The notes under the pieces were generated by a model, which had not been told where the DNA came from, did no database searches, and worked only from the letters and a program-made list of their open reading frames with translations. From IMG/VR virus record IMGVR_UViG_3300025674_000073, positions 1-46,844 of that record: 46,844 nucleotides of DNA. One strand, written 5' to 3'. A program made the translations under genes and the position numbers. Below, piece by piece: positions 20,166-43,645 of the stretch (within the stretch, counting starts at the first letter, position 1; every line of letters starts with the position of its first letter). The DNA comes from a virus.

Positions 20166-20890
20166 TATTACTTTGTAATGGAGATAGTTGGACACAAGGT
20201 GATTCACCAGCACAAACACCAAATTGGAACGCAAAACCAAATTTAGATTGGTATAATATTATACCTGACTTTGGAGAACATTGTAACTTTCATCCAGATA
20301 GGGTATTATATAAGTTTTACGATAGTGATATATGGCCAAAAGTATTAGGAAAAAAACTTGGAGTAGAAACTTGGAATTGTGGTAGGTTGGGTGCAAGTAA
20401 TGATAAAATCATTAGAACTACAATTAATTCTATTGAGTATTTAGAATCATTAGGTAAAACAGATATATTTGTTGTGATTGGTTTGACCAGTATAAATCGA
20501 TATAGTAATTTAGAATTAAACTATTCATATGAAGAATTGAGAATTGAAAGTGATAATATTAATCCAGTATTGGTTCAAAAGAATTTAGTAAATTTAATCA
20601 ATATTCAGAACTATTTATCTATGAAAGGTTATGATTATTTAATATTTAATGCGTTTGATACTCTAATGGAAGATGATTTTAAGTCTTTACCATTGTATCA
20701 ATATATTGATTTTGACAAAATTTACAACAATGATTTAACGGCACACTTTAGAAATTATATAGATAATAAATTTAATACTATGTGGCATGTAAACGGAAAA
20801 CACTACCAAGCAGCACACCCAACAGATTTTTCTCACATAGAGTGGGGTAATGAATTACATAAATACATTAAGGAGAACTATAATGTTTAA
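20162..20890 (+). CDS. SGNH/GDSL-type hydrolase-like protein (paralog 7 of 7)
   Basis: The last gene of the glycan train encodes 242 residues. Block I is LLCNGDSWTQGD with Ser9, and block II is GRLGASNDKIIRTTI, very like SNDGIVRRTL of the first paralog at 306. Block III reads VVIGLTSINRY. The C-terminal AAHPTDFSHIEWG keeps the His-Pro but has Gln-Ala where DxxH would place Asp. The start codon overlaps the NeuB stop (ATGA). The role should match that of the other copies, acyl handling on the sugar, with uncertain activity. Confidence 0.72.
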   Translation: MILLCNGDSWTQGDSPAQTPNWNAKPNLDWYNIIPDFGEHCNFHPDRVLYKFYDSDIWPKVLGKKLGVETWNCGRLGASNDKIIRTTINSIEYLESLGKTDIFVVIGLTSINRYSNLELNYSYEELRIESDNINPVLVQKNLVNLINIQNYLSMKGYDYLIFNAFDTLMEDDFKSLPLYQYIDFDKIYNNDLTAHFRNYIDNKFNTMWHVNGKHYQAAHPTDFSHIEWGNELHKYIKENYNV

Positions 20891-20987
20891 GAAAATAAAA
20901 CAATGGTTTGTTAATTTTAAAAATAAAAGAAAATTAGCAAAAAAACTCAAAGAACTTCGCAAACGAGACCCGTTCATATATAAATAA
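20883..20987 (+). CDS. 34-residue basic protein, small conserved-looking ORF
   Basis: A short ORF starts at the ATG at 20883, preceded by AAGGAG at 20870-20875, and overlaps the end of the SGNH gene by 8 nt. The product begins MFKKIKQWFVNFKNKRK and ends RKRDPFIYK. It is rich in Lys and Arg, with an amphipathic N-terminal helix. I recall very similar tiny proteins ending in RDPFIY from marine T4-like phages, which supports it being real, but no function is known. The good ribosome binding site and the overlap favour translation. Confidence 0.6.
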   Translation: MFKKIKQWFVNFKNKRKLAKKLKELRKRDPFIYK

Positions 20988-21033
20988 AACTTCTAAATCT
21001 TATATTTATAGTTGTATACAAATATAAATTTTT
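20979..21033 (+). promoter_or_regulatory. Candidate promoter region between glycan operon and region 2
   Basis: TATAAATA at 20979-20986 equals the T4 late promoter consensus but overlaps the stop of the 34-residue ORF. ATATTTAT at 21002-21009 is the octamer found in most other gaps of this window and ends 33 nt before the ATG of the kinase gene at 21043. The stretch also forms an AT-only inverted repeat, TTATATTT (21000-21007) with AAATATAA (21020-21027). One of these elements probably starts transcription of region 2; which one cannot be decided here. Confidence 0.4.
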
Positions 21034-21042
21034 AGGACTAAA

Positions 21043-21801
21043 ATGATTAAATTATCAGAATTACTACACGAAGGATACAGAGACCCAGGTATTTTCAAAG
21101 CAGTGTTCTTAGCAGGTGGGCCGGGTTCGGGTAAAACCTACATAGCAAAAGGATTGTTTGGAATACCAGAAAAGGTAAATGTATCTCAAAGTGGTTTAAA
21201 AATGGTCAATTCAGACAAAGAACTTAAATTTCTTCTAAACAAATACGGATTTGGAACAAATTTAGACGCATTACCAGATGAAGTGTTTTCAAATCTAACC
21301 AATCCATCAGACCCTAAATATAGTGGGTTAAGAACTTTCGCAAAAGACTTAACAGCAGAAAGAAGAAGATTATATCAGAACGGAAGACTCGGAATGATTA
21401 TTGACGGAACCGGTGATGATTATCAAAAAATTGCAAGAGAAAAGGCAGAATTAGAAGATATCGGATATGATTGTTATATGATATTTGTCAACACTACTTT
21501 AGAAGTAGCACTTGATAGAAATGAAAAAAGAGATAGAGTTTTACCAGAAAAAATCGTATCAGATTCTCACAAAGAAGTAAATAGAAATATTGGTGCATTT
21601 CAAGGACTATTTGGTTCTGGTAATTTTATGATTGTTGATAACAATCAATACAAAACAGAAGCAGAAGCAAAAAAAAGATTTAAGATGTTGGTTAAACAAG
21701 GATTGAGTAAATTTATAAAAGCACCAATCACAAGTAAAAAAGCTCAGTCTTGGATTAGAAAACAAAAAATATTAGATAAATCAAAAGGAAGGACAAAATA
21801 A
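21043..21801 (+). CDS. P-loop kinase (zeta-toxin/AAA-like) with capsid-targeting-like N-terminus
   Basis: The 252-residue protein has Walker A GGPGSGKT (residues 25-32) and an IIDGTGDD segment as the likely Walker B or substrate site. MIFVNTTLEVALDRNEKR follows, as in nucleoside- or zeta-type kinases. It should phosphorylate a small molecule or nucleotide. The first ten residues, MIKLSELLHE, match the peptide found on several other proteins in this window and end in LHE, a fit to the (I/L)xE cleavage rule of T4-type prohead protease. It may therefore be packaged. The gene follows an intergenic promoter candidate and abuts the endolysin gene. Confidence 0.7.
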   Translation: MIKLSELLHEGYRDPGIFKAVFLAGGPGSGKTYIAKGLFGIPEKVNVSQSGLKMVNSDKELKFLLNKYGFGTNLDALPDEVFSNLTNPSDPKYSGLRTFAKDLTAERRRLYQNGRLGMIIDGTGDDYQKIAREKAELEDIGYDCYMIFVNTTLEVALDRNEKRDRVLPEKIVSDSHKEVNRNIGAFQGLFGSGNFMIVDNNQYKTEAEAKKRFKMLVKQGLSKFIKAPITSKKAQSWIRKQKILDKSKGRTK

Positions 21802-22283: not shown

Positions 22284-22293
22284 GAGAAAATAA

Positions 22294-22949: not shown

Positions 22950-23362
22950 TGTTAAATAAACCGAATTACATTAGAAATGTAGCACCAGTTCCGGCAAACC
23001 AAAAAGACGGAGAACACCAATACTATAATCCAGAAGTGGAAGAAGGTTGGTCAGACAAATATAAAAAAAGTATTGATTGCAATAATCCAAAAGGATTTAG
23101 TCAAAAAGCACATTGTGTAGGACGAAAAAAGAGGGAGACAATAATGAACTTAAAATCATTAGTAAAAGAAACCATTAAAGAAGTAATGACAGAAAGAAAA
23201 TTAAATATGTTTTTTGAAGAAAACACACCAACAAACCCATCAAAGTGGTCTTATTATAAATCACAGGCAAAGAAAAAGTTTGATGTATATCCAAGTGCTT
23301 ATGCAAATGCTTGGGCATCAAAACAATATAAAGCAGCCGGTGGTAGTTGGAAAAAAGGATAG
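22949..23362 (+). CDS. Small modular basic protein with possible internal start
   Basis: The 137-residue frame has an N-terminal part ending SIDCNNPKGFSQKAHCVGRKKR, with two cysteines, and a C-terminal module KWSYYKSQAKKKFDVYPSAYANAWASK rich in aromatic and basic residues. An in-frame ATG at 23144 has GAGGGAG 6-12 nt upstream and would give a 72-residue protein starting MNLKSLVKETIKE, another capsid-targeting-like peptide. Two products from one gene are therefore possible. Both ends look like nucleic-acid-binding modules of phage internal proteins. The function is unknown. Confidence 0.5.
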   Translation: MLNKPNYIRNVAPVPANQKDGEHQYYNPEVEEGWSDKYKKSIDCNNPKGFSQKAHCVGRKKRETIMNLKSLVKETIKEVMTERKLNMFFEENTPTNPSKWSYYKSQAKKKFDVYPSAYANAWASKQYKAAGGSWKKG

Positions 23363-23366
23363 AACT

Positions 23367-23805: not shown

Positions 23806-26769
23806 ATGAAATCTAAACTAACAGAATGGTTAGTTAAACCTTTATTAAATGAAGCACCAGATTTAGACATTAAAGTCGGTGATGACATTTTAATGGGTAG
23901 GTTTAAAAACAAACGAGTAAAAGTTAAGTCAATTGAATTTAATGAAAAAGGAGATTTACTTATCAATGGTCGTCCTGCGTTAAAATTTAGAAAAGTCAAA
24001 AACGACAAAACATTATTACCGAGTAAAACTACAAACAAACCATCAGCAGAACCAGATTCAGATAGAAAAGGTATTGATGATGAATATCCACATCACAAAA
24101 CAGAAAGTTTCTTTGGATTGGGAGCAGGAGACATTCCTTCACCAAGTCGTAAAGCAGTCAAGAAAAACAAAACCGATAAATTATCAGGATATAAGAAAAT
24201 TGATGAAAGAGCAAAACAAGCAGTAGTTCGTGGAAAACTACACAAAAATATTACAGGATTTAATCTTACTTACAAAGGTAAAAAATATAAAGAAATAGAT
24301 TTTGAAGCGAGAAAAATAGATAATAAAACAGAACTCGTTACTTTAAGAATATTAAATCCAAAAAAATTATTTGGACAAGATTTAAAAGTTAAATTTAGAA
24401 CTATTTCTCGTGGCCCATTTATGAAAACCGATACGAGTAAAAAAGTAAACGAACAAAAAGAAATTAAAAAAGTAATCGCAATATATCCAGGTCGTTTTCA
24501 ACCTTTTGGACCACACCACAAAAAAGTATTTGAAGCATTAAAAAGTAAGTTTGGAGAAGTATACATCACAACATCAGATATACAAAGACCACCAAGACAC
24601 CCAATGAACTTTAATGAAAAAGTTAAACATATGGTTAAAATGGGAATACCAAAGAATCGTATCGTGAAAGAAAAAGTTCCTTATGTGGCAAATAACTTAT
24701 TGAAGAAATTCAACAAAGACACCACAGCAGTAGTTTATGTGTTTGGTGCAAAAGATGCTGGTAGATTAAAAGGTGGAACCAAGAAATCAGGTGGTAAAAC
24801 TTATTACCAAGACTTCAAGAAAAGTATCAATGATTTAAAAGGATTTGAAGAACACGGATACATTTATGAAGCACCATTTGTTAAAGTTAGTGGTATATCA
24901 AGCGGAACAGAAATTCGTAATCTATTAGGTAGTCCTAAAATAGATGATAAAAAAAGAGAACAAATATTCAAAAAAACATTTGGATACTTTGATAAGTCTA
25001 CATATGAAATGATGACTTCCAGATTTAAAAAGTTGTTTGAATTTTATCAACAACCACAAGTAAAAAAACTTATGAAAGAAGCAAGTGCTTTTGGAAACAC
25101 ATTTAATGCAGCAATAATGTCAGACGAGGGTATGTATGATTTCTTCGGTAGTTTATCAGATTATTACAGAATATCACCAGAACACGCAGAAGTTATTGGA
25201 TATGAATTAATTGATTTCCCAGTAAGAGATTCAGAAGATATGATGTTTACCATTATGGCAGATGAGTATGAAAAAGACCGTACCAAAACCGTAACACACG
25301 GAAGAACAATCAATCAAAATAGAAAAAATACAGAATCAGTAGATAATCCATTTCCACGATATAAAGAACGAATGAGAAAAACATTAGGTGGTCTTGGATT
25401 TGAAATAATTAAATACTTCGGTGAAGAGTCATTTACCAAGATGAAAGAATCACCAATACTGAAAAAATCAGATGTATTCAAGGGTGTTGACCATATTAAG
25501 AAAGTTCAAGAAGGATTTATGAAAGATGTTGAATTATTAATAGAGGGTGGAGCGTATGGACATATGAATCATCCATTTGATGATAATAATTTGACGTTTT
25601 CAGATTTGAAGAACATAATTATTAATGGGTTAGAAGGAAAGTTAAATCGTGAAGATAGAGTTTCTGAAAAACTTGATGGACAAAACTTGATGGTGAGTTG
25701 GGTAGACGGAAAGTTAAAAGCAGCCCGAAACAAAGGTCATTTGAAAAATGGCGGTAAAACTGCACCAACAACAGCAGGTATCGCTAATATGTTTAGTGGT
25801 AGAGGTGATATTAAAAAAGCATTCGTTGGTGCGATGAGAGATTTAGAAAAAGCAATTGGTAGTTTATCCAATGCACAAAAAACAAAAATATTTGGTAATG
25901 GAACCAAATGGATGAATTTAGAGGTTATATATCCACAAACAGCAAATGTAATTGATTACGACATAGCAGAAATAGTATTTCACGGAACATTAGAATATGA
26001 TAAAACCGGTAGACAAATAGGATACTCAAAAGAATCTGCTCGTATGTTAGAAGGTATGATTAGACAAGTAAATCAAAATATACAAAAAACATTTAAGATT
26101 GGTAAACCAAACTTTTTAAAATTAGATAAAGTTCAAGACTTTGGTAAAAAGAAAAACTTATATTTAAATAAATTAAAAAAATTACAATCACAATATGGAT
26201 TAAAAGATACAGATAGATTAGGCCAGTATCACGAATCATTTTGGAAAGAATATATTTTTAATGCAGCAAAACAATTTAAAGTTTCGTTAAAACCAAATGA
26301 ATTAGTAAACTTAACAAATCGTTGGGCATACTTTGATAAGTCTTACAAAATTCCACAAATGAGAAAAGACTTTAAAGACAGACCAGAATTTTTAAATTGG
26401 ATATTAGATACCGATAAATTAAATCATTTAAAAATGTTTAAAGACAATATTAAACCATTTGAAGTATTGTTCTTCCAAGTCGGTGCAGAAATATTGAAAA
26501 ACGCAACAGGATTTTTAGCAGTATCACCTAAACAAGCAGTATCAAAAATCAGACAAGATATGTTGACTGCTTTGGTTCAATTACAAAAAGGTGAGAATGT
26601 AGAAACATTAGATAAATTAAGAGTACAATTAGAAAAATTTGACGCTATCGGGGGAACATCAGCAATTGTTCCGAGTGAGGGATTAGTGTTTAAGTATAAA
26701 GGTAATTTATACAAGTTCACGGGGGTTTTTGCTCCAATCAATCAAATACTCGGTAGTTTAAGATTTTAG
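23806..26769 (+). CDS. Cytidylyltransferase-like plus polynucleotide-ligase-like fusion protein
   Basis: From the ATG at 23806 (ribosome binding site TAGGAG) the product has 987 residues. Residues 1-16 end in PLLNE, like the capsid-targeting peptides nearby. Residues 223-375 form a nucleotidyltransferase domain: IAIYPGRFQPFGPHHKKV is the GxFxPxHxGH-type motif, and SGISSGTEIRNLL (362-374) is the ISSTxIR motif of NMN adenylyltransferase and relatives. Residues 581-987 look like an adenylating ligase: motif I EKLDGQN (Lys622), NLEVIYP (Glu706, motif III region), motif IV SEGLVFK (957-963) and YKFTG as motif V. The candidate (I/L/V)xE cuts KVNE (213-216) and LLIE (577-580) fall exactly before the two domains. 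A virion-packaged NAD- or nucleic-acid-processing enzyme is plausible. Confidence 0.75.
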   Translation: MKSKLTEWLVKPLLNEAPDLDIKVGDDILMGRFKNKRVKVKSIEFNEKGDLLINGRPALKFRKVKNDKTLLPSKTTNKPSAEPDSDRKGIDDEYPHHKTESFFGLGAGDIPSPSRKAVKKNKTDKLSGYKKIDERAKQAVVRGKLHKNITGFNLTYKGKKYKEIDFEARKIDNKTELVTLRILNPKKLFGQDLKVKFRTISRGPFMKTDTSKKVNEQKEIKKVIAIYPGRFQPFGPHHKKVFEALKSKFGEVYITTSDIQRPPRHPMNFNEKVKHMVKMGIPKNRIVKEKVPYVANNLLKKFNKDTTAVVYVFGAKDAGRLKGGTKKSGGKTYYQDFKKSINDLKGFEEHGYIYEAPFVKVSGISSGTEIRNLLGSPKIDDKKREQIFKKTFGYFDKSTYEMMTSRFKKLFEFYQQPQVKKLMKEASAFGNTFNAAIMSDEGMYDFFGSLSDYYRISPEHAEVIGYELIDFPVRDSEDMMFTIMADEYEKDRTKTVTHGRTINQNRKNTESVDNPFPRYKERMRKTLGGLGFEIIKYFGEESFTKMKESPILKKSDVFKGVDHIKKVQEGFMKDVELLIEGGAYGHMNHPFDDNNLTFSDLKNIIINGLEGKLNREDRVSEKLDGQNLMVSWVDGKLKAARNKGHLKNGGKTAPTTAGIANMFSGRGDIKKAFVGAMRDLEKAIGSLSNAQKTKIFGNGTKWMNLEVIYPQTANVIDYDIAEIVFHGTLEYDKTGRQIGYSKESARMLEGMIRQVNQNIQKTFKIGKPNFLKLDKVQDFGKKKNLYLNKLKKLQSQYGLKDTDRLGQYHESFWKEYIFNAAKQFKVSLKPNELVNLTNRWAYFDKSYKIPQMRKDFKDRPEFLNWILDTDKLNHLKMFKDNIKPFEVLFFQVGAEILKNATGFLAVSPKQAVSKIRQDMLTALVQLQKGENVETLDKLRVQLEKFDAIGGTSAIVPSEGLVFKYKGNLYKFTGVFAPINQILGSLRF

Positions 26770-32446: not shown

Positions 32447-33635
32447 GTTAAAAGAATACATTAAGAACTTCGTCATCAAAGAATTAGAAAAAGACGAAGA
32501 ACTTGAAGAAGTTTCTACAACTGCTACGGCAGGTATCGACGGAACCGGAACAGGTCATTACGATACACCACACGCATTCTCAAGTGGTTCAGCAGTTGGA
32601 CACAAAAGTCCAGAAGTCGGTGGATATAAAAAAGTAAATGAAGCAATCACCGGTTCAAACAGAAAAGAATTACTAAAAATCGGTAAAGAAATAAAAGATA
32701 ATTTATTTAGAATCAATCCAGCTCTTAAAAAAGTAAGTGATGATAGACTTTTAATTAGAGGTATTGCAAATACATTTATGTTTATGAGATATACACCAGA
32801 TAATGTAAATTATCAAAACTATAAAAAATACTTTCCAAAAAACTTTAAGAGTTCATCAGTTCAAAAATTAGCAAATATATTACAAAGTGAAAAAGATACC
32901 GTTAGAAAAACATTTTTTAAACAAATTGTTAAAGAATCAATAAACGAAGGTTATGGTGAAATGATGGACGAACTTGAAAAAATATATAGACCAACAGGTG
33001 CACCACCAATTGCAAAAGAAGCATTAAAAGATTTAGCAGACGAATATGATATCGGTAGAGTATTATATGCAGCAAGAACAAACAAAAAATCATTTATGGA
33101 AGTTATGGATATGAAAATAGACCAACTTCAATCTCAATATGTAAATAAAAAACATATCAATACTATCAAACGAGGTAAAAAATTAAGAGAAGGTAAGAAA
33201 AGATTTAAAGTTGGACATAACATAGGTAAAGCTAAATATGTAATCTCTTTCCACGACGGAAAATCAAAACATAAAGATGGTAGTGATTTCTTTGGTATAG
33301 AAACTTTCAGAAACCAAAAAGAATTTGAAAAAGGTAAAAATGATTTAAGAAAAAAAGGATATATTGAAGAATCAATAGGTGAATCAATAAACGAAGGTCG
33401 TTATCACGATTGGAGAAATGACGAATCAATGACACCAAAACAAAAAATCGGTGTATCGGTTCGTGAAGTTCGTGACGCATTAAACGAATTAGACAAAAGA
33501 ATTAAAATGAATTTAAGATTAAAAACAGAATTAAATGTTGATTCCAGAAGTTATTGGAAAAACACACACAAGGCACTTAACAAAATATCTGAAAGATTAG
33601 TTAAGTTAGCAAACAAAGTAGGAAGTATGAAATAA
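32421..33635 (+). CDS. Modular head-module protein with internal gp21-like cleavage motifs
   Basis: The 404-residue product starts with a basic and acidic helix, then STTATAGIDGTGTGHYDTP, a linker type familiar from marine phage proteins. Candidate (I/L/V)xE sites end at residues 74 (KKVNE before AITG), 176 (KESINE before GYGE) and 325 (GESINE before GRYH). They divide the protein into four segments of roughly 70 to 150 residues. The segment around 244-317 is a compact Lys-rich module with ISFHDGKSKHKDGSDFFGI. It may be a precursor processed in the prohead. No enzyme motif is visible. Confidence 0.55.
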   Translation: MSKHDKIAKLKEYIKNFVIKELEKDEELEEVSTTATAGIDGTGTGHYDTPHAFSSGSAVGHKSPEVGGYKKVNEAITGSNRKELLKIGKEIKDNLFRINPALKKVSDDRLLIRGIANTFMFMRYTPDNVNYQNYKKYFPKNFKSSSVQKLANILQSEKDTVRKTFFKQIVKESINEGYGEMMDELEKIYRPTGAPPIAKEALKDLADEYDIGRVLYAARTNKKSFMEVMDMKIDQLQSQYVNKKHINTIKRGKKLREGKKRFKVGHNIGKAKYVISFHDGKSKHKDGSDFFGIETFRNQKEFEKGKNDLRKKGYIEESIGESINEGRYHDWRNDESMTPKQKIGVSVREVRDALNELDKRIKMNLRLKTELNVDSRSYWKNTHKALNKISERLVKLANKVGSMK

Positions 33636-34258
33636 TGAAACAAGTTATCGTAGACTATATACCATTTGAAATATCGCCACAACAAATAAATGAGGCGATG
33701 AAAGAAAACAACGGAAAGTTAGTTGTTAAAGGTGTATTACAAAGAGCAGAAGCAAAAAACCAAAACGGACGAGTATATCCAAGAGAAATATTGGTTCGTG
33801 AATCTAAAAAATACGATGAAAATTTTGTAAAACAAAAAAGAGCACTTGGTGAATTAGACCACCCAGATAGTTCGGTTGTTAATTTACAAAATGTTTCTCA
33901 CAATGTAACTGAAATGCATTTTGAAGGTGATAACTTGGTTGGAACTTGTGAAATCTTAACAACACCAAGTGGTAATATATTACGAGAACTATTTAAGAAT
34001 GGTATCAAATTAGGTATCAGTTCACGAGGATTGGGTAGTGTCGAAGTAGTTAGAGAATCTAATGGAGACACCGTTTCAAAAGTAGGAGATGACTTTGAAC
34101 TTATCGCTTTTGATTTTGTTTCCAATCCATCAACTCACGGAGCATTCTTATATCCAGAAAAAATGAATGAATCCGTAGACCACACTCAAACAGGTAGAAC
34201 TTGTGGAGATTATTGTAAAGCAGAAGATATCATTAACCATATCATAAGGGGTGAATAA
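33635..34258 (+). CDS. 21: Prohead protease, gp21-like
   Basis: The 207-residue protein shows the herpesvirus-assemblin-like serine protease landmarks of T4 gp21: QNGRVYPREIL near the N-terminus, RALGELDHPDSS with catalytic His76, and LGISSRGLGSV with catalytic Ser at 129 or 130. AFDFVSNPSTHGA follows near the end. It matures the prohead by cutting core and capsid proteins, in T4 after (I/L)xE. Its own QQINEAM at 17-22 contains INE and could be self-cleaved. It sits among proteins rich in such motifs. Confidence 0.92.
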   Translation: MKQVIVDYIPFEISPQQINEAMKENNGKLVVKGVLQRAEAKNQNGRVYPREILVRESKKYDENFVKQKRALGELDHPDSSVVNLQNVSHNVTEMHFEGDNLVGTCEILTTPSGNILRELFKNGIKLGISSRGLGSVEVVRESNGDTVSKVGDDFELIAFDFVSNPSTHGAFLYPEKMNESVDHTQTGRTCGDYCKAEDIINHIIRGE

Positions 34259-34465: not shown

Positions 34466-34861
34466 ATGGATTTAAGAGAATTATCAAAAATAACAACACG
34501 ATACACTAATCGTTTAGATGAAGCAATGAAAATGAAAGGTGTTAATGGTAAAATGGTTGAAGTTCCAAGTGAATACGGAAGAATAATGAGTGGAATCGAT
34601 AGATTGATGTCAAAATTCAATCCACGAGGAATTATGTTTGGATATCAAAGATATCACAAACTAAAACCAAATGATGAATATAGTGGTTCAATTATTTTAA
34701 AAAATCCATTATCTAAAAAAGATATTGATGTTGTTATGAAACATCTTAAAAGTGCAGGTAGTTCATTAGGAGTTAAATTTGAAAAAATTACATTTAATCC
34801 AGATAGAAATGAACCATTTGTTGAATTTAGAGTAGACGAAGATAGTTTAATAGCTAGATAG
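34466..34861 (+). CDS. Hypothetical head-module protein, 131 residues
   Basis: It starts MDLRELSKITTRYTNRLDEAMKM, a helix in which LDE at residues 17-19 fits the (I/L)xE rule. A compact alpha/beta region follows with FNPRGIMFGYQRYHKLKP and NEPFVEFRVDEDS. I do not recognise the family. The position between protease and scaffold genes, with a targeting-like N-terminus, suggests an internal virion protein. It starts two nt after the preceding stop and ends three nt before the next start. Confidence 0.5.
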   Translation: MDLRELSKITTRYTNRLDEAMKMKGVNGKMVEVPSEYGRIMSGIDRLMSKFNPRGIMFGYQRYHKLKPNDEYSGSIILKNPLSKKDIDVVMKHLKSAGSSLGVKFEKITFNPDRNEPFVEFRVDEDSLIAR

Positions 34862-34864
34862 ACA

Positions 34865-37237
34865 ATGCCAGCACTTAGTAAAAAACAACAAAAATTTATG
34901 GGGATTGTAAGGTCAATCCAAAAAGGTGAACAACCAGCGTCCAAGTTTTCCAAAGACGCACAAGATGTCGCCAAAGATATGAAGAAAAAAGATGTGAAGA
35001 AATTCGCATCAACCAAACACAAAGGACTACCGATGAAAAAAGAAGTTCTGAATAAACTGAAAGAAATGATTAAACAAGAATTATCAGAATACACTTACGG
35101 AACAGGTGATGTCGTTAAAGATGTTAATCCAAGTTGTCCACATTATGGTGCTATGGGTAAAGTAAAATCCGTAAATCCAAGAAGTGTTGTGTTTGTAGTG
35201 ATGAATAAAGGTAAGAACTTTAAACCAGGTATGGAGTTGGAAAAATCACACGACCAAATGAAAAAAATGAATGAAAACAAAGTATATAAAGTAGGTGATA
35301 CCATTAGTTTACTTTCTTTTGATAGAAGAAATAGAGGTAAAGCAAAAGTAAAAAGTGTTGCCAAATCAAGACCTAATAAATTTGGTATAAAAAATCATTA
35401 TGTTACTGATAAAGGAATATTTACAGATATGGAAGTAGAGGGAACAGAAGCATTCAAATTAAGATTTAAAGGTAATACAGAAAAACAAGTTATGAAAGCT
35501 ATGCAATCACCAGGTTCAGCCATAACTCGTGAATCAGTAAACGAAATGTCAGACAAAACTAAAAAGATTATCAACAAATTAGGTAAAAAAGAAAAAGAAA
35601 TGTTTATCGATATGGTTGATATGTTGGGATTTGACCAAGTAATGGCAGATTACAAAAGAGATAAGAAAGCATTTAAACAAGCATTAAAAGATATGAGTGA
35701 ATCAGTAATTCAAGAAAGAAATGACGAAATTCAAACTGGTAAAGAATATACAAAACTTTGGTTACAATCAATAAACTTGATAATCAAACAAGCCAATAGT
35801 TTAAAAGGTCAATTAGCAAAACATCCGGTTAAAAGAGACTTGAACAAACTAAAAGCAGTTGAAACTTTATTTAAAAAGTTTATCAAACCAGCAGTAGAAC
35901 GAGAGGGTAAAGATAATAGACATTACGCACCTAACCAAACAGAATTAAAAAAATACTTATCAGATTCAAAATTTAAAATCGCTATAAGAATTTTAAAACA
36001 AACACTTAAGCCAGCTAATGGTTATGATGAAAACTCTTTTTATTATTTAGGTGATAAAGAGAAAAAATTACTTGAAAAGATGAGTAAAGTTTTATATGGT
36101 ATTGAAACTAAATTAGACAATACAAATTTAGAAAATGTTAATGAATCAATGAGTCCATCACAATTAAAAAAGATGAGAGATGATTTTGAAAAGACAGGTG
36201 AATTACCACCACATTTAAAAAAGTTTGTAAAAGATGTAAATGTACTGAAAAAGAAACATAAAGTTAAAAATATAGTAGTTCCAGGTTTAGAGTGGATGTC
36301 AGATATGAAAGAATCAGTAAATGAAGCAAGTGTATCACAAGTTCGTTCAACTATATCAAGAGTTAAAAAACAACTAATGAAAAAATGGGATAAAAAAGGT
36401 GGATATGAAAACTTTGGTCAAAAAGAACTTCGTAATTTAAAAAGTAAGTTTAAAGAAAATCCTTATGGTAGTCCAGAAGAAAGACAGATTTCACAGATGT
36501 TAAGTGCATTTAATAATTGGGCTATGAATTATAGTGGTGATATGAGAGAATCAGTAAATGAAGACGGACACACAGATGTCGCATCATCAAAAAGAAAAGT
36601 AATGATTATGGTTGATGATTCAAATAAACTTCTAAACAAACTAAACGGAATGAACAAAGAAGATTCATTACCAAGTTGGTGGACAGACAAGATTACTTTA
36701 TCACAAAAGTATTTAGAAAAAGCAACCAATTATTTATTGAATCCAGTTGAATCAGTAAATGAAGATGTATACGCCATCGTGGATAAATTCAACCAAAAGA
36801 AACAAGACTATGACCAAGTTTACTTCAAAGACAATAACTTAAATATAGTTAAGAAACATATGAAGAAGATGGGTAAAAAATATGGTAAGATGAATCTTAT
36901 CAGAGTAAAGACCAATGGTAAAATGAGTTTGGTAGAAGCAATGTCTAAATCACAAGCATCAGAATTACTAAAACAATTAGGTGGTAATAAATTTATCTCA
37001 ATGACTGGTGCAAAAAACTTAAGTTTTAGTGGATTGGGACTAACAATGCAAATTGGTAAAAATTCAAAAGGTGTAACACACGTTAGATTTCAATTATCAT
37101 CTAAAGATTTATATGATATAACTTTCTATTCAATAAGAGGAAGTAATGTAAAAACTAAATCAAAAGAAAAGGGAGTTTATGTTGACCAATTAGGTAAGAT
37201 ATTCAAAAAGAATACAGGTTTGAACGTTAGATTATAA
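34865..37237 (+). CDS. Modular polyprotein: DUF3008-like N-terminus plus ESVNE-separated segments
   Basis: The 790-residue product begins MPALSKKQQKFMGIVRSIQKG and continues with DMKKKDVKKFASTKHKGLP, matching the small DUF3008 domain (residues 1-56). QELSE (71-75) ends a basic helix. After that, short motifs recur: RESVNE (222-227), NVNES (424-428), KESVNE (482-487), RESVNE (561-566) and ESVNE (629-633), with SVIQE (280-284) as a variant. The segments between them differ in sequence. If the motifs are gp21 sites, the protein is a precursor of six or more capsid-internal polypeptides. It lies downstream of the protease and shares strand and spacing with its neighbours. The segment functions are unknown. 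Confidence 0.65.
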   Translation: MPALSKKQQKFMGIVRSIQKGEQPASKFSKDAQDVAKDMKKKDVKKFASTKHKGLPMKKEVLNKLKEMIKQELSEYTYGTGDVVKDVNPSCPHYGAMGKVKSVNPRSVVFVVMNKGKNFKPGMELEKSHDQMKKMNENKVYKVGDTISLLSFDRRNRGKAKVKSVAKSRPNKFGIKNHYVTDKGIFTDMEVEGTEAFKLRFKGNTEKQVMKAMQSPGSAITRESVNEMSDKTKKIINKLGKKEKEMFIDMVDMLGFDQVMADYKRDKKAFKQALKDMSESVIQERNDEIQTGKEYTKLWLQSINLIIKQANSLKGQLAKHPVKRDLNKLKAVETLFKKFIKPAVEREGKDNRHYAPNQTELKKYLSDSKFKIAIRILKQTLKPANGYDENSFYYLGDKEKKLLEKMSKVLYGIETKLDNTNLENVNESMSPSQLKKMRDDFEKTGELPPHLKKFVKDVNVLKKKHKVKNIVVPGLEWMSDMKESVNEASVSQVRSTISRVKKQLMKKWDKKGGYENFGQKELRNLKSKFKENPYGSPEERQISQMLSAFNNWAMNYSGDMRESVNEDGHTDVASSKRKVMIMVDDSNKLLNKLNGMNKEDSLPSWWTDKITLSQKYLEKATNYLLNPVESVNEDVYAIVDKFNQKKQDYDQVYFKDNNLNIVKKHMKKMGKKYGKMNLIRVKTNGKMSLVEAMSKSQASELLKQLGGNKFISMTGAKNLSFSGLGLTMQIGKNSKGVTHVRFQLSSKDLYDITFYSIRGSNVKTKSKEKGVYVDQLGKIFKKNTGLNVRL

Positions 37238-37247: not shown

Positions 37248-37682
37248 ATGACATTATCAAAAAAACAAATAATGGAAATGAACAAAAAGTGGAAAGACTT
37301 CCGTTTAACAGAAGAAATGAAAATTTTCCCAGCTGGAGCACAACACGGATTTGATTTAACAGATTTCAAACCAGGTGGATTTAAAAAGTTTTTAAAGGCA
37401 CTAAGTATTCCAATGATTGCAAAAGGTTCATCAACAGGAGTAAGTTGGTCAGACGGAAAAAGTTTTTATTGGAGAAACAAAGATATTATCATCATCACAG
37501 GTAATAATCCAATCACAGGACAATACCGAGATGAAGGAAGAAGAAAACCAGAAAAGAATTACGCATCATATGTGGGTATTGAAACAAAAAACCCAGACGA
37601 TATGGACAATGTGATTAAATTATTTAAACAAAACACTTCTTATCGTAAAGGTGAATCAAAAGGTAGAAGGAGCTTTATATAA
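37248..37682 (+). CDS. Hypothetical protein with LTE near the N-terminus
   Basis: The protein has 144 residues. The first 24 residues, MTLSKKQIMEMNKKWKDFRLTEE, form a helix that contains LTE and may be a targeting peptide. The remainder is a globular alpha/beta domain with GVSWSDGKSFYWRNKDIIIITGNNP and a Lys/Arg-rich end. No family is recognised. An AAGGA ribosome binding site lies 9 nt ahead of the start. The stop overlaps the next gene's start by one base. Confidence 0.52.
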   Translation: MTLSKKQIMEMNKKWKDFRLTEEMKIFPAGAQHGFDLTDFKPGGFKKFLKALSIPMIAKGSSTGVSWSDGKSFYWRNKDIIIITGNNPITGQYRDEGRRKPEKNYASYVGIETKNPDDMDNVIKLFKQNTSYRKGESKGRRSFI

Positions 37683-38752
37683 TGATTAAATTAAAAGATA
37701 TATTAAATGAAAATAAAGTTAAACCTAAAACTCTAATAACTGAAAAGTTTGCAGCAGGTAAACTTAGAGCATTATCAAACCATTGGCAAGGATTGGAAAC
37801 ACAATTCTTTATGTGGGGAGCAAAACTTGGTGTTGAATGGGACAAAATCACAGATAGTGAAATAGAAACCAACGCAAAACCAAAGAAAAAAGGTATTGAA
37901 ATTGCTTATGTTGACAAAGATGTTACAGTTCCGACCAAAGGTAAAAAAGGATATTGGTCAAGTGATAACTTTAAATTAAGAAAATTTACCGCAGTATTGG
38001 TATTGAAAGACGGAAAGCCAATGTGGTGGACACACGACTACGAACCAGCAACAAGAGTTCAAACCGTAACAGGTAAAAGACTAACGAGTGGTGGATATAG
38101 TAAAGGTAGAGTTGCAACCGTAGATGCTGGACCAAGAGATTTACCTTATCCAAGAAGAAATAAAACTTTCGGTATTAGTGAATTAGGATACCAATCATTA
38201 TCATCAGTAATGAAAATACCAGGAATTAAATTTCATCACATCAATTTAGATGAAGACCAACCTTATATGGGTGCTGGTGTAAAACGACAAATGAGACAAG
38301 CAGCTCAATTCGGTGCAAGTAAATTTACTACTGATGATGAATTTAGAAGAATTAACCAATCTTATTTTGATGAAATGTTAAAGAAAAGACTTAACGACCC
38401 TAAGAAATTAGCAGAAAAAGTTAAGAAAGCAGCAAACTTTTGTCAAGAAATTATTGACGCAGCACTTGGTGGTAAAAAAGCAACGGGTAAGGTTAAAAAG
38501 ATTATTGACGGATTCCAATCCAATAGAAGAACCGCTACTCAAGAATCAGATGCTTACGCATTAGCATCAGCAGTAGGTGATGACTTAAGTCAATTATATA
38601 GATACTATGGATATTACTTAGGTGCATTAGAACAAGAAAAACAAGACAAAATAGATTACGGAACAGCAGACTTTTCCAGAAGTGAAGTTGAAGGATATGC
38701 AAAAGATGTTCAAAGATATACACTTGGTATTATGTCAGGAAATTTTAGATAA
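37682..38752 (+). CDS. Hypothetical 356-residue protein with capsid-targeting-like N-terminus
   Basis: It begins MIKLKDILNE, followed by a second candidate site, LITE, at residues 18-21. The body has a beta-rich part (IAYVDKDVTVPTKGKKGYW and AVLVLKDGKPMWWTHDYEP), then a helical part after about residue 200 with a LYRYYGYYLGALEQEKQDK segment. I do not recognise a family. The size and context suggest an internal virion protein delivered with the DNA, or a prohead-core component. Confidence 0.55.
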   Translation: MIKLKDILNENKVKPKTLITEKFAAGKLRALSNHWQGLETQFFMWGAKLGVEWDKITDSEIETNAKPKKKGIEIAYVDKDVTVPTKGKKGYWSSDNFKLRKFTAVLVLKDGKPMWWTHDYEPATRVQTVTGKRLTSGGYSKGRVATVDAGPRDLPYPRRNKTFGISELGYQSLSSVMKIPGIKFHHINLDEDQPYMGAGVKRQMRQAAQFGASKFTTDDEFRRINQSYFDEMLKKRLNDPKKLAEKVKKAANFCQEIIDAALGGKKATGKVKKIIDGFQSNRRTATQESDAYALASAVGDDLSQLYRYYGYYLGALEQEKQDKIDYGTADFSRSEVEGYAKDVQRYTLGIMSGNFR

Positions 38753-39303
38753 TGATTAAACTAACAGAATTAGTAAATGAATCGTTTAAACCAAAGTTTA
38801 GGGATACTGAAAAGTTAGCAAAAATAATTGGTAGAAAAATAGATGATGTTGCTAAGTTTCTAAAAAAATATGAAATTCACGCAGACGATTTATTAGATGT
38901 ATTAGATTCTGGTTCTTCAAGTCAAAGAAGACGATACTCAATGGCTATATTAGCAGCTATGAAAGGTAATCGTAGAGCATTAAAAGACTTAGACAATTTA
39001 TTAGGATTTTTACCAGAACAAAAATTTAACGAAAGAACAACAGGATTTACGGATTCAGGTAGAGGATATCAAAACAAAGAAACTCAAATCCAATCAGTAA
39101 ACGCAGTAAAAGACGCAAGTAAAAAAGTCGGTAAATTACAACAAAATGTTGTTGGACAATTTATTAAAGATATTAAACAAAATAAATACGATGCTATGGA
39201 TTTGGTTCGTTCAGTCAAAACCACACCATTGGGGGACGCATCAATTAGTAAAAAAGAATTCTTTCTTAGTTTGTTTGATTTGATTAAAAAACGAACAAGA
39301 TAA
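38752..39303 (+). CDS. Hypothetical protein with capsid-targeting-like N-terminus, 183 residues
   Basis: The N-terminus MIKLTELVNES repeats the MIKLxxLLxE peptide with VNE as the possible cut. A central helical region follows with DDLLDVLDSGSSSQRRRYSMAIL and a later SVNAVKDASKKVGKLQQNVVGQF. It is basic overall and has no membrane helix. The first base of its ATG overlaps the previous stop. The last bases of its stop belong to the ATATTTAT candidate promoter for the next gene. The function is unknown; an internal virion protein is most likely. Confidence 0.52.
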   Translation: MIKLTELVNESFKPKFRDTEKLAKIIGRKIDDVAKFLKKYEIHADDLLDVLDSGSSSQRRRYSMAILAAMKGNRRALKDLDNLLGFLPEQKFNERTTGFTDSGRGYQNKETQIQSVNAVKDASKKVGKLQQNVVGQFIKDIKQNKYDAMDLVRSVKTTPLGDASISKKEFFLSLFDLIKKRTR

Positions 39304-39330: not shown

Positions 39331-39975
39331 ATGGCAAAACTAAAAAAATTAATCAAAGAAAACTTCTCAGTAGTCGGTGGGGTAGTTTCAACACCAGCAA
39401 TTAATGCGGGATATGGTTCTTTATCACAAATCGTTAAAGAAAAATATGGTGAATCATCAAACAACCCAAAAGTATCATCAGAACAAGTATCTGAAGCATT
39501 AAGAAATTATAATAAATTAGGGGAAACTCTTTATCAACAACAATCTTTAAAAGAAACTGCTAAATCTTTATCACAAATCGCAGAAATGGCAGCATCTCAT
39601 ACATTACAAGAAACAGAAGATTGGTTTGATAAAGTTACGGTTTCTCGTAATATGAAAGAATTAACCAACCACTCAAAAGCATTCTCAAAAATAGCAGAAG
39701 AAGCATCATCCGTTCAACAAAGATTAGCAGGACTATATGAAGATATGGGTATGATTTTAAATCGTTATTATGACATACCAGAAGGTGAAGAAAAAGATAA
39801 AGAAGAATACGGAAGTGGAACAATTGAAGAAGGTGATTACGAAGAATTCTTCCAATCAGCAATGAAAAAATATGGAATCTCTTCACCAGATGAATTAGAA
39901 TCAGATGAAAAGAAGAAAGAATTCTTCAATTATGTAGACAAAAACTACAAAGCAAAATCAGAAGGTAAAATATAA
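39331..39975 (+). CDS. Hypothetical 214-residue helical protein with targeting-like N-terminus
   Basis: It starts MAKLKKLIKENFS with IKE as the candidate cut, followed by a helical protein rich in Ser, Glu and Lys. SQIAEMAASHTLQETEDW, SKIAEEASSVQQRLAGLY and an acidic stretch IPEGEEKDKEEYG are the clearest segments. The order resembles prohead-core or internal head proteins. No catalytic motif is visible. The strong ribosome binding site suggests high expression. Confidence 0.55.
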   Translation: MAKLKKLIKENFSVVGGVVSTPAINAGYGSLSQIVKEKYGESSNNPKVSSEQVSEALRNYNKLGETLYQQQSLKETAKSLSQIAEMAASHTLQETEDWFDKVTVSRNMKELTNHSKAFSKIAEEASSVQQRLAGLYEDMGMILNRYYDIPEGEEKDKEEYGSGTIEEGDYEEFFQSAMKKYGISSPDELESDEKKKEFFNYVDKNYKAKSEGKI

Positions 39976-40316
39976 TGAAACTTAAAAAACTATTAAACGA
40001 AAACCTTTGGAACGAAAGAAAGTTTGGTCAGTCATTACCAACACTTGAAGACACTACCAAAGCATACAAGTTAAAAAAAGAAGAAGAAGTTAAAGAACCA
40101 GTAAAAGAAGTTTCCTATTCATTCAGCACTACTGATAAAAGAGAACAGATTTCACCTATGGGATATAACTTGTTAAGAAAAGATGTAATAACATTAAAAG
40201 ATGCGGTAAAGTATTTAGAAAGGTCAGTTAAAAAACAACACCAAGCAGATACTCACCACGACTTAATATATTTACTAACCAGAGCACACGAAGCTTACAA
40301 AAATTCAAAAAAATGA
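39975..40316 (+). CDS. Small basic protein with LLNE targeting-like N-terminus
   Basis: The protein has 113 residues and starts MKLKKLLNENLWNERK. The LNE at 7-9 is a clean (I/L)xE site. It is basic and helical and ends RAHEAYKNSKK. A long helix around KDAVKYLERSVKKQHQADTHHD is likely. It overlaps both neighbours by 1 to 4 nt. No family is recognised. It is probably an internal virion protein whose N-terminal peptide is removed during maturation. Confidence 0.52.
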   Translation: MKLKKLLNENLWNERKFGQSLPTLEDTTKAYKLKKEEEVKEPVKEVSYSFSTTDKREQISPMGYNLLRKDVITLKDAVKYLERSVKKQHQADTHHDLIYLLTRAHEAYKNSKK

Positions 40317-40471
40317 TTAAATTACAATCACTATTAACTGAAAACAATTCATCAATTAAGAACAAAATCATTAAACACATACAAGCTATGGTAAAATATA
40401 GTGATAGACTCGGTAGTGATGAAATTGATGATTTAAAAGAATTGTTAAGATTAGTTTCAAAAATAAGATAA
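40313..40471 (+). CDS. 52-residue protein with MIKLQSLLTE N-terminus
   Basis: A short frame starts at 40313, overlapping the previous TGA by 4 nt (ATGA), and ends with TAA at 40469-40471. The product MIKLQSLLTENNSS continues as a small amphipathic helical protein ending LLRLVSKIR. The first ten residues are the same targeting-like peptide seen on the genes at 21043, 37682 and 38752, ending in LTE. That likeness and the tight junction make it a real gene despite its size. It would be mostly signal plus about 42 mature residues. Confidence 0.6.
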   Translation: MIKLQSLLTENNSSIKNKIIKHIQAMVKYSDRLGSDEIDDLKELLRLVSKIR

Positions 40472-40487
40472 AGAAAGAGAGTAAAGG

Positions 40488-40717: not shown

Positions 40718-40727
40718 AGGTTTTGTT

Positions 40728-40735: not shown

Positions 40736-40750
40736 AATTACGAAACTAAA

Positions 40751-40808
40751 TACACTATGTACATTCGTACAATCATATAGTGTAAATCAATTAAACTATA
40801 TTATAGTT
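40751..40808 (+). promoter_or_regulatory. Leader with inverted repeat and palindrome ahead of scaffold gene
   Basis: TACACTAT (40751-40758) and ATAGTGTA (40777-40784) form an 8-bp inverted repeat; inside it GTAC (40759-40762) and GTAC (40767-40770) can pair as an alternative. Ten bases later AACTATA-T-TATAGTT (40794-40808) is a perfect 15-nt palindrome. Both precede AACGGAGATTATAAAATG, the ribosome binding site and start. They could be mRNA stabilising hairpins, an operator, or part of a promoter. No known regulator site is recognised. Confidence 0.45.
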
Positions 40809-40845
40809 CCAAATAACTATACTGAATCCAAACGGAGATTATAAA

Positions 40846-41976
40846 ATGGATGATTTACTAAGAGAAGCTATTGCTGATGCTAAAGCAGTTAGAGAAACTG
40901 CATTAGAGAACGCAAAAATAGCACTTGAAGAAGCATTCACACCACGTTTGCAATCAATGTTGTCAAAGAAAATCCAAGCAGAAATGGAAGATTCTGAAGA
41001 CGGTGAAGAAGTAGAAGAAATGGAAGCACCAGAAGAAGAAGAAATGGAAGCTGAAGAAGGTATGCACGGAGATGCGGAAGAAATGGAAGACGCAGAAGAA
41101 ATGAGAGATGCGGAAGAAATGGAAGACGAAGAAGAAGGTGTACACGAGGAAGAAATGGAAGACGAAGAAGAAGGTGAGATGAGAGAAGAGGAAGAGGAAG
41201 AAGAAGACGAAGTTTCTGAAGAAGAAGAAATAGAAGACGAAGACGACCTTGACCTTGAATCAGTTCTTGCTGAATTAGAAGCAGACCTTACTGAAGAAGA
41301 AGACGCAGATGAAGAAGAAAAAGTTGACGAAGTCGAAGATAAAGACGAAGAAGAAAAAGTTGACGAAAACGATGTATCATCAGAAATCGGCTCAGGAGAC
41401 AACAAAGTGAAACCAGAAGCAAATGACTCATCTAAAACAGGTGCACAAGGCCCAGAAGGTGAAGGTTCTGATAAAGAATCAGGTAAAGAAGACGACAACT
41501 TAGAAGTTGTTGACGATTTAGTTGAATCAGAAGACCTTGACTTAGACGAAGTCTTAAAAGCACTTACAGAAGAAGAAGATGCTGAAGAAGAAGCAGACAA
41601 AGTTGAAGAGCTTCAAGCTGAACTAAAAGAAACAAGAGAAGTAGTTCAGTTTATGAGAGATAAATTAAACGAAGTTAATCTTTTGAACGCTAAATTATTG
41701 TTCTCAAACAAACTATTTAGAGCATACGGATTGAACAACAACCAAAAATTAAAAGTTGTTGAAACTTTTGACAGAACTAAAAACTTAAGAGAAGTTAAAT
41801 TGGTTTACGCTACATTAGCAGAATCATTTAAAAAACCTTCTAAACCTATAAGTGAGTCAGTTTCTAAAGGTTCAAGTTCAAAACCAGTTGCTTCTACAAA
41901 ACCTGCAAAACAGGAAGTATTGTCAGAGGGAGCAGAAATGAAAGCAAGATTCAAAAAATTAGCAAACATACTTTAA
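40846..41976 (+). CDS. 22: Prohead core scaffolding protein, gp22-like
   Basis: The 376-residue protein starts with a helix MDDLLREAIADAKAVRETALENAKI. A very acidic, low-complexity region (about 46-250) follows, built of Glu, Asp and Met repeats such as AEEMEDAEEMRDAEEM. The C-terminal globular part has ELQAELKETREVVQFMRDKL, then LNAKLLFSNKLFRAYGL and VVETFDRTKNLREVKLVYATLAES, which matches gp22-type core proteins of marine T4-like phages. The scaffold is degraded by the prohead protease during maturation; LSE near the C-terminus and ITE-like sites support this. It sits immediately before the capsid gene, as in T4. Confidence 0.85.
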   Translation: MDDLLREAIADAKAVRETALENAKIALEEAFTPRLQSMLSKKIQAEMEDSEDGEEVEEMEAPEEEEMEAEEGMHGDAEEMEDAEEMRDAEEMEDEEEGVHEEEMEDEEEGEMREEEEEEEDEVSEEEEIEDEDDLDLESVLAELEADLTEEEDADEEEKVDEVEDKDEEEKVDENDVSSEIGSGDNKVKPEANDSSKTGAQGPEGEGSDKESGKEDDNLEVVDDLVESEDLDLDEVLKALTEEEDAEEEADKVEELQAELKETREVVQFMRDKLNEVNLLNAKLLFSNKLFRAYGLNNNQKLKVVETFDRTKNLREVKLVYATLAESFKKPSKPISESVSKGSSSKPVASTKPAKQEVLSEGAEMKARFKKLANIL

Positions 41977-41995
41977 TAGTTAGGAGACTAAAAAA

Positions 41996-43645
41996 ATGAG
42001 TAAATTAAACGGAATTGAAAAGTTGATGGACGGATATAATCCACAAAGACAACTTTTAGAACAAACTCGTCAGTTAGTCGATAAATGGGAACCAACTGGT
42101 CTATTAGAAGGTCTTGAAGATGAAACTAAAGTTCACGGAATGGCAGTTCTTCTTGAAAACCAAGCAGGTCAGTTAATCCAAGAGGCTTCCGTAACAGGTG
42201 GTCAAAACGCAGAAGAGTGGAGCGGTGTAGCTTTACCATTAGTTCGTAGAATTTTTGGTGAGTTAGCAGCACAAGACTTTGTTAGTGTTCAACCTATGAA
42301 CCTACCATCAGGTCTTATCTTCTACCTTGACTTCAAATACGGAACAGCACAAACAAACCTACACACAGAAAACTCAGATGTATATGGTAATACATCAGGT
42401 TCAAATGTAGACGCATCAGGCGGTCTATATGGTGCAGGTAAGTTTGGATATTCGATTAATGATGTAAACACTGCAGCATTAACTTTAAGTGATACAATCG
42501 GCGCAAGTAACTTTACAACAGGTTCAGTTTCTTGGGAAGATGTTGATTTTGAACCATCACTATCAGAATCAGTAGCACTTGGTAATGCAGCAGACGATGG
42601 ATTAGTAAAAATTAATGTTTCTACTACATCTATGACTAACCCAGACACAGATGGTGTTAGAGCATTTGCACTTTCAGGTTCAGCGGGAGAATTCGATGAA
42701 TACTTCCCTGCATACACAAGTGTAAGTGGAACAACTATTTCTTTCATCGCAAAGAAATCAGTAGCAACAGCACCATTAACAGCATCAGTTGCTTACCACA
42801 AACAACCAGCAACAGATTACAGCAGAACAGACTTTGAAGCAACAGCTGCACAAGTCGATGCTAACCCAGAAACAGATATCGACATTCCAGAATTAGATAT
42901 CGCATTAAAGAGTATTCCAATCATTGCGAAAACTCGTAAGTTAAAAGCAGTCTGGACTCCAGAACTTGCACAAGACTTAAATGCATATCATTCAGTTGAC
43001 GCAGAAGCAGAATTAACATCTCTACTTTCTGAGTACATTTCTATGGAAATTGACTTAGAAATTCTTGATATGTTGATGAACAACGCTTCAGCAAAAACAG
43101 AAAGATGGAGTGCGAGACCAGGATATGAATATGATTCAGCAACATCATTGTTTGCACAATCATCAGGTGAATCAAATGCATACACTAAAGGTACTTGGTT
43201 CCAAACACTTGGAAACAAAATCCAAAGCGTAAGTAATGCAATTCATCAGAAAACACTAAGAGGTGGAGCAAACTTCATCGTTGTTTCTCCAGAAACAGCT
43301 ACAATCTTAGAGTCAATTCCTGGATATGCTACATCAGCAGACGGTGACGCAACAACAAACCAGTTTGCTATGGGTGTTCAAAAAGTAGGTGCAATTAACA
43401 ACAGATACACAGTTTATAAGAACCCTTACATGCTTGAAAACCAAATCTTAGTTGGTTTTAGAGGTGCTAACTTCTTAGAAACAGGTGCGGTTTACGCTCC
43501 ATATGTACCGTTAATTATGACACCGCTTGTATACGACCCTAAAAACTTTACACCACGTAAAGGGGTAATGACAAGATACGCGAAGAAGATGGTAAGGCCT
43601 GAGTTCTACGGTAAAGTCATAGTAGCAGATGTAAATTATGTTTAA
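41996..43645 (+). CDS. 23: Major capsid protein, gp23-like
   Basis: The 549-residue product has the T4 gp23 layout. The N-terminal 63 residues end GQLIQE before ASVTGGQ, an (I/L)xE cleavage site at nearly the same position as in T4 (after Glu65). The HK97-fold core follows with VALPLVRRIFGELAAQDFVSVQPMNLPSG. Later conserved parts are IPIIAKTRKLKAVWTPELAQDLNAYHSVDAEAEL, FIVVSPETATILESIPGY and the end PYVPLIMTPLVYDPKNFTPRKGVMTRYAKK. A Ser/Thr/Gly-rich stretch at about 120-260 is variable. The ribosome binding site is TTAGGAG. A strong terminator follows. Confidence 0.95.
   Translation: MSKLNGIEKLMDGYNPQRQLLEQTRQLVDKWEPTGLLEGLEDETKVHGMAVLLENQAGQLIQEASVTGGQNAEEWSGVALPLVRRIFGELAAQDFVSVQPMNLPSGLIFYLDFKYGTAQTNLHTENSDVYGNTSGSNVDASGGLYGAGKFGYSINDVNTAALTLSDTIGASNFTTGSVSWEDVDFEPSLSESVALGNAADDGLVKINVSTTSMTNPDTDGVRAFALSGSAGEFDEYFPAYTSVSGTTISFIAKKSVATAPLTASVAYHKQPATDYSRTDFEATAAQVDANPETDIDIPELDIALKSIPIIAKTRKLKAVWTPELAQDLNAYHSVDAEAELTSLLSEYISMEIDLEILDMLMNNASAKTERWSARPGYEYDSATSLFAQSSGESNAYTKGTWFQTLGNKIQSVSNAIHQKTLRGGANFIVVSPETATILESIPGYATSADGDATTNQFAMGVQKVGAINNRYTVYKNPYMLENQILVGFRGANFLETGAVYAPYVPLIMTPLVYDPKNFTPRKGVMTRYAKKMVRPEFYGKVIVADVNYV

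Follow-up and report, generated by a model that had tools for sequence, protein, structure and literature searches.

In phage T4, the prohead protease gp21 cuts after L/I-x-E, and leaders of about 10 residues are enough for targeting (PMC9026906). The T4 proteins IP1-3 are injected inhibitors of GmrSD, a type IV restriction system (PMC12373910). The window, which is the whole stretch analysed here, is a 46.8-kb viral record of a marine T4-like phage (IMG/VR record IMGVR_UViG_3300025674_000073, positions 1 to 46,844). It contains genes whose products are likely to be prohead-targeted cargo polyproteins that are cut by the head protease, and these genes would form an enlarged T4-type head-protein delivery system.

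Like T4 IPI-III and Alt, the window proteins have a leader of about 10 residues ending in hydrophobic-x-Glu, and they occur with a gp21-family protease, the gp23 site column and variable cargo genes. The T4 internal proteins give one mature protein per gene, whereas several genes here are strings of up to ten modules, and the window leader consensus, MIKLxxLLxE, also differs from T4. The leaders have the properties of T4-type capsid-targeting sequences: they end in [LI]xE (V is also found here), are common to otherwise unrelated proteins and are exchangeable, and a gp21-family protease is present in the same phage.

Two other systems are similar in part. The ejection proteins of phiKZ and SPN3US, cut by gp175 and gp245, respectively, are among many head substrates that a gp21-family protease cuts after x-x-Glu, and they are ejected with the DNA. 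They differ in the motif (S/A-x-E or A-x-E) and in that the cuts remove propeptides; the available portions of the sources describe no module strings. Polyvalent proteins (Iyer et al. 2017, PMC5512222) are multidomain mosaics predicted to be injected with DNA, but they have other domain sets, and their processing is attributed to built-in peptidase domains and not to a prohead protease. Pfam scans detected neither such a peptidase domain nor the typical domain set in the window proteins.

Head protease, capsid site and N-terminal leaders

No DNA-level relatives of the window were found among isolates by megablast. Judged by the major capsid protein (MCP), the isolates closest to it are Microcystis phage Mel-JY01, at 57%, and Flavobacterium phage immuto, at 53%. 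The comparison set consisted of 80 viral loci with a protease identity of 79-95% and of loci found with the kinase, the ligase and the 37682 protein, giving about 240 viral loci beside the isolates.

The window encodes a prohead protease of the S77 class (Table 1), which has the domain and shares the conserved His and Ser regions with T4 gp21. It aligns with T4 gp21, and GELxHP and GxSSRGxGS are conserved in all five aligned sequences. An earlier note on this DNA had pointed to IQE at MCP residues 61-63. The motif is present, and E63 falls in the column of T4 E65 in all five phages (window QLIQE/A, Mel-JY01 QLISE/A, immuto QIVSE/A, S-SM1 QILTE/T, T4 SFLTE65/A; a slash marks the predicted cut).

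MIKLxxLLxE-like peptides had been reported in the earlier note at the starts of six genes (21043, 37682, 38752, 39331, 39975 and 40313). All six were found, and the peptide is enriched over internal Met codons. One fixed pattern matches 6/63 window genes and 3/300 internal Met (about 10% vs 1%), or 7/64 genes when the 52-aa gene 40313 is included (binomial P about 4e-6). Upstream of 20890, not one of the 28 genes carries the pattern (Fisher P 0.003). In the window and five relatives it is found on 28/235 genes at ≤21 kb from the MCP gene and on 6/314 elsewhere (P 2e-6), and two of these six (the kinase of G005 and 39757) still lie within the cargo region. K-rich starts are common in AT-rich phages, the motif is short, and the background at internal Met is about 1%. 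A chance likeness is nevertheless very improbable given the roughly tenfold enrichment, the clustering at head genes, the absence from the glycan genes and the conservation in relatives. At the kinase start, the leader is retained in relatives with variable letters, and only P3 and P1 are conserved. In the two isolates, none of the genes recognised as encoding a polymerase, helicase or recombinase was found to have a MIKL-type leader; with a looser pattern, chance-level matches occur.

Three additional members had been suggested. The gene at 23806 and the internal start at 23144 are retained, the latter being a gene start in relative G006 (MSLKSLVKEVIAEE) and fused in L230. The gene at 22572 (VITE) was rejected, as its leader is acidic and not K-rich and two homologues have no site at that place. 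A second leader type (MDLRELSKITTRYTNRLDE) precedes a 131-aa protein and sits on other protein bodies in L041 and L006. One protein of L006 (7621-8376) carries this leader (LKILSEISTRYGNRNINE) and ends in a copy of it (LKELSKITTRYNK); it looks as if it had been excised from a longer string. In the fused homologues of L077 and L069, the leader of the 37682 protein is found internally, as a linker, and the 40313 module is fused to d1 in L025 (...EPIVE/NNSSLKAK).

In Mel-JY01, homologous proteins (60276-62718; L084 10276-12718) have the leaders MIKLKSLLQE/ or MIKLMSLVTE/ followed by ISDRVWH(L/V)T. Their genes are not part of the head region and are distant from the MCP gene. An ADP-ribosyltransferase-like reading of the proteins at 60276 and 62056 was rejected because neither Pfam nor PHROG supported it.

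Module strings and their borders

Four genes (32421, 34865, 23806 and 38752) encode mosaics of modules of 50-200 residues (407 in the ligase) separated by [ILV]xE. The separators in 32421 (polyprotein A) and 34865 (polyprotein B) are ESVNE, ESINE, KKVNE and similar motifs, as seen with the relatives side by side. When proteins were cut at the sites and the pieces clustered, the same piece was seen to recur in numerous settings. The 20 window modules, used as queries, revealed 44 distinct multi-module orders in 249 related loci, some of them from truncated open reading frames (ORFs). Modules also switch genes: b5 and b8 of polyprotein B occur inside A, and a2 and c1 occur inside B (c1 in L140 and L042). 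Among relatives, modules alternate between stand-alone forms with a leader and fused forms. The site lies in the same column of both forms in 82 of 285 comparisons, the remainder of which include families outside the system and were not sorted singly.

The sites are retained across contexts. The motif [ILVM]xE directly precedes the kinase in 62/62 distinct sequences, as the gene leader in 20 and in other contexts in 42, and precedes the ligase module in 64/64. Across 50 distinct kinase junctions, E at P1 is invariant and P3 holds only L, I, V or M, with P2 and P4-P10 variable (2.0-3.2 bits).

Breakpoints of homology give the same picture. Among 1057 non-redundant proteins, 686 interior homology starts were found, and [ILVM]xE lies at -4..+8 in 61% of them compared with 21% of random positions in the same proteins. 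The corresponding values for [ILVM]NE are 21.6% and 5.0%. Homology ends carry [ILVM]xE in 43% of cases (19% at random positions). No enrichment of [ILVM]xK, xD or xN was detected at interior homology starts in the same test, and the reversed motif Ex[ILVM] was partly enriched because ESV belongs to the linker. The asymmetric window with control motifs replaced a fixed +/-2 window, in which the signal was weaker because the alignments include the shared linker. Predicted cut sites thus stand at module borders, as in polyproteins processed by a viral protease.

The linker is also conserved as DNA. The 76 ESVNE/ESINE sites use 22 different 15-mers, the commonest of which is GAATCAGTAAATGAA (24 sites). 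Val is encoded by GTA in 54/54 cases (background 42%) and Ser by TCC in 16/76 (background 4%). This codon bias indicates that linker DNA was copied as DNA, which would fit homologous recombination in the linker as the way in which modules are exchanged. It also favours an explanation in which the ESVNE and [ILV]xE borders would be no more than recombination seams or flexible linkers, and the proteins uncut multidomain proteins of the virion or the cell. This is unlikely, since the stand-alone leaders, although different in letters, have retained L/I/V at P3 and E at P1, the MCP maturation site obeys the same rule, and only Glu-ending motifs are enriched.

An AlphaFold2 (AF2) model of polyprotein B (predicted local distance difference test score, pLDDT, of 64) consists mostly of helical modules, with b5 at a pLDDT of about 95. 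Eight of its ten sites lie ≤2 residues from segments with pLDDT<50 (circular-shift P 0.011), which is weak support because the alignment was built from fragments. A viral fold search with the model recognised the DUF3008 part and gave nothing significant. Pfam and PHROG searches with single modules of polyprotein B identified b1 (DUF3008) and b10 (phrog_9437), and otherwise gave only chance-level matches.

Similar proteins are present in isolates. The immuto protein gp079 (841 aa) is constructed in the same way, with MNE/SVNE/ and SLNE/ linkers and two copies of a b8-like module; its predicted cuts include SVNE/GRVL, SLNE/DDYL and MMNE/NEID. In this phage (vB_FspM_immuto_2-6A; host Flavobacterium sp. 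LMO8), gp088 is a further candidate polyprotein, and gp080, gp094 and gp095 are of the capsid-targeting type; Mel-JY01 has a leader MGKLINILLSE/L. In the immuto scaffold protein gp067 (L083 25626-26867), a GFEQWLDSVSAQMDKFG... unit is duplicated in tandem between VNE/ and LAE/ sites, the copies being nearly identical. Synechococcus phage Bellamy gp171 (L285 1397-3001; 534 aa), encoded next to a cytidyltransferase, looks like a site-bordered mosaic; its segments match 353 phage records, for the most part at scattered places. These scattered matches suggest that module shuffling may be common in Kyanoviridae.

Enzyme modules, virion evidence and gene neighbourhood

The P-loop kinase is encoded by a separate gene in the window and starts with MIKLSELLHE/GYRDPG. 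Many relatives have it as a fused module, either within the nucleotidyltransferase-ligase polyprotein or following another domain, and in relatives it is inserted between the two halves of the SH3/KOW-like module (23854..24453). Relatives also have inserts in the module at 25081..25545, which lie between about 552-556 and 565-577 in query numbering, just upstream of its end. The best PDB fold matches of the ligase model (pLDDT 70) in Foldseek are T4 Rnl1 and Rnl2, which are not significant (E 0.4-2.3), and the Pfam RNA_ligase match (0.06) is below the cut-off. PDB sequence searches with polyprotein 23806, the kinase and the ligase profile gave no matches.

A putative cytidylyltransferase, T4-GC190, was detected by mass spectrometry in purified virions of cyanophage S-SM1 (Sullivan et al. 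2010, PMC3037559). The corresponding protein, SSM1_190, begins with MKKFSAFLNE/AERS and matches phrog_395 (6e-129), the family to which the window nucleotidyltransferase module also belongs (about 6e-7). SSM1_189, which contains a KWDG motif, precedes SSM1_190. Both are in phrog_455, which has 764 positions and spans the two proteins, with the junction at the leader. The window thus resembles S-SM1 in the leader, the PHROG and an accompanying ligase-like sequence, but differs in that S-SM1 has two short genes and the window one string of at least four modules.

The presence of targeting leaders and gp21-type cut sites, as the earlier note had proposed, is therefore well supported by the S77 protease, the MCP site, the conservation of P3 and P1 only, and a virion homologue with a leader. 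The kinase and the nucleotidyltransferase-ligase, which that note had counted among ten or more packaged proteins, belong to the predicted set. With several genes encoding polyproteins, this set is larger than the note had proposed and comprises about 12 genes and about 30 predicted pieces.

Several points weigh against cargo polyproteins. Some module borders are without a site (c2 has one in 13/23 cases and b6 in 7/12), and a motif as short as [ILV]xE arises here by chance roughly once in 50-60 residues. Polyprotein B opens with b1, which lacks a leader of the MIKL type. Fragment alignments can themselves lower AF2 confidence at borders, and part of the border pattern could reflect recombination seams alone, the linker DNA being conserved beyond the amino acids. 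No proteomics was located for the window phage or close relatives, and no paper on virion proteomics of immuto or Mel-JY01 was found in the open-licence literature. Genes 32421 and 34865 occupy the places of T4 gp67, gp68 and gp22, whose multiple cuts give debris.

The polyproteins of the portal-protease-scaffold region could accordingly be prohead core proteins that are cut so that the core can exit, and not cargo. Gene 32421 lies between the portal and gp21 genes and 34865 between the gp21 and gp22 genes, and both products have several [LI]xE sites, as do T4 gp22, gp67 and gp68. T4 core proteins are cut by gp21 into multiple fragments (PMC9026906), and the polyprotein modules are Lys-rich and mostly helical. 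T4 core fragments are mostly expelled, whereas the window borders coincide with interchangeable modules, some of which have enzyme motifs. The modules also stand alone with a capsid-targeting leader, turn over fast and look folded (b5). The kinase, nucleotidyltransferase and ligase have family matches or catalytic motifs, and the related cytidylyltransferase is retained in cyanophage virions (PMC3037559). A core role is thus rather doubtful as a general explanation; it may still apply to modules of genes A and B, some of which may be expelled fragments.

The coordinates of the features are listed in Table 1. A glycan/SGNH cluster up to 20890 precedes the head region, in which the genes for TerL, portal, S77 protease, S21-like protein, scaffold and gp23 start at 28056, 29637, 33635, 40488, 40846 and 41996, respectively. 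The cluster (306-20890, + strand) contains about 27-28 consecutive glycan/surface-type genes, including SGNH-like (GCSFTAG), glycosyltransferase, NeuB-like, aminotransferase, radical SAM, HAD and nucleotidyltransferase genes. A lysozyme-like ORF (HHEGGYVHDPKDLGGETNFGI) is found at 21801-22283 between the kinase and other cargo genes. The ribosomal protein S21-like gene (40488-40685), located between the cargo genes and the scaffold gene, is kept in relatives and annotated in Mel-JY01. Its genome matches were distant Firmicutes only and gave no clue to the host. A GIY-YIG homing-endonuclease-like ORF (43864-44433) directly follows the MCP gene, comparable to segD in T4, and is also present in L041.

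Table 1. Predicted cargo, protease and head features of the window (a slash marks a predicted cut)
Feature	Position	Strand	Basis or remark
P-loop kinase (zeta-toxin/AAA_33 type)	21043..21801	+	PF06414 7e-9; PF13671 5e-6
Leader of kinase, MIKLSELLHE/	21043-21072	+	sequence
Internal start, leader MNLKSLVKETIKEVMTE/ and DUF5872-like module	23144..23362	+	inside ORF 22949-23362; next residue R
Leader MKSKLTEWLVKPLLNE/ of nucleotidyltransferase-ligase polyprotein	23806..23853	+	sequence; leader-swap pairs; next residue A
SH3/KOW-like and second domain (residues 17-216), ending KKVNE/	23854..24453	+	polyprotein module
Cytidylyltransferase/NMNAT-like nucleotidyltransferase (residues 217-425), ending LMKE/	24454..25080	+	PF01467 8.6e-5; phrog_395 5.8e-7
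Module without assigned fold (residues 426-580), ending LLIE/	25081..25545	+	polyprotein 23806
RNA-ligase-like module, 407 residues	25546..26766	+	KLDG, LEV, EGLVFK invariant or nearly so (39 sequences)
Polyprotein A, between portal and protease	32421..33635	+	leader, then a1-a5
Modules of polyprotein A	a1 32511-32642, a2 32643-32948, a3 32949-33191, a4 33192-33383, a5 33396-33632		
gp21-type prohead protease (S77), own sites INE20 and MNE179	33635..34258	+	PF03420 1e-27; phrog_207 5e-51
131-aa protein, second leader type MDLRELSKITTRYTNRLDE/	34466..34861	+	sequence
Polyprotein B, ten modules b1-b10	34865..37237	+	b1 = DUF3008
Modules of polyprotein B	b1 34865-35089, b2 35090-35275, b3 35276-35545, b4 35546-35701, b5 35717-36145, b6 36146-36325, b7 36326-36562, b8 36563-36763, b9 36764-36937, b10 36938-37234		
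144-aa protein, leader ending WKDFRLTE/	37248..37682	+	similar RL[NTQ]E ending in most relatives listed
356-aa cargo candidate, leader MIKLKDILNE/ (37682-37711)	37682..38752	+	sequence; next residue N
Two-module protein c1+c2, leader MIKLTELVNE/	38752..39303	+	module comparison; next residue S
214-aa protein, leader MAKLKKLIKE/	39331..39975	+	leader conserved in relatives; next residue N
Two-module protein d1+d2, leader MKLKKLLNE/	39975..40316	+	module comparison; next residue N
52-aa protein, leader MIKLQSLLTE/NNSS	40313..40471	+	sequence
Scaffold (gp22-like) protein	40846..41976	+	gene adjacent to MCP gene; acidic; only a weak PHROG match
Major capsid protein gp23, predicted cut QLIQE63/ASVTG, Glu codon 42182-42184	41996..43645	+	PF07068 1e-79

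Predicted delivery and its meaning

In the proposed mechanism, the leaders would bind the prohead core, and the activated protease would mature the MCP and cut leaders and linkers. The small modules would then stay with the DNA in the window phage, and at least the enzyme modules would enter the host at time zero and function there. With a predicted cut site at each border of the polyproteins, a single act of targeting should bring in a large number of small mature proteins. Among relatives, the modules are shuffled, duplicated, fused and split at these sites, apparently in part via the conserved 15-bp linker GAATCAGTAAATGAA (ESVNE).

The kinase, nucleotidyltransferase and RNA-ligase-like modules are probably injected with the DNA, and would most plausibly serve as a repair kit for nucleic acids or nucleotides, made in advance and directed against rapid host defences. 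By analogy, the combination suggests repair of cleaved tRNA or restoration of a nucleotide cofactor. T4 repairs cleaved tRNA later in infection with Pnk and Rnl1. For the small modules, anti-defence is the natural expectation, because T4 IP1-3 inhibit GmrSD.

T4-type injected cargo has so far been found gene by gene. Since the cut site marks the module borders, cargo modules become readable from sequence in hundreds of environmental phages, and a long list of candidate proteins for early action, anti-defence and repair would follow. The shared linker suggests how cargo modules spread. On an evenly balanced judgement, widespread uncultured T4-like phages may assemble their injected arsenal combinatorially, the linker being a 15-bp recombination seam and a protease site at once, so that any module landing in a string would be targeted, released and injected without its own gene or leader. 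If the predicted processing is true, this would be the first phage, within the open-licence literature searched, in which proteins for injection are made as polyproteins and cut apart by the maturation protease.

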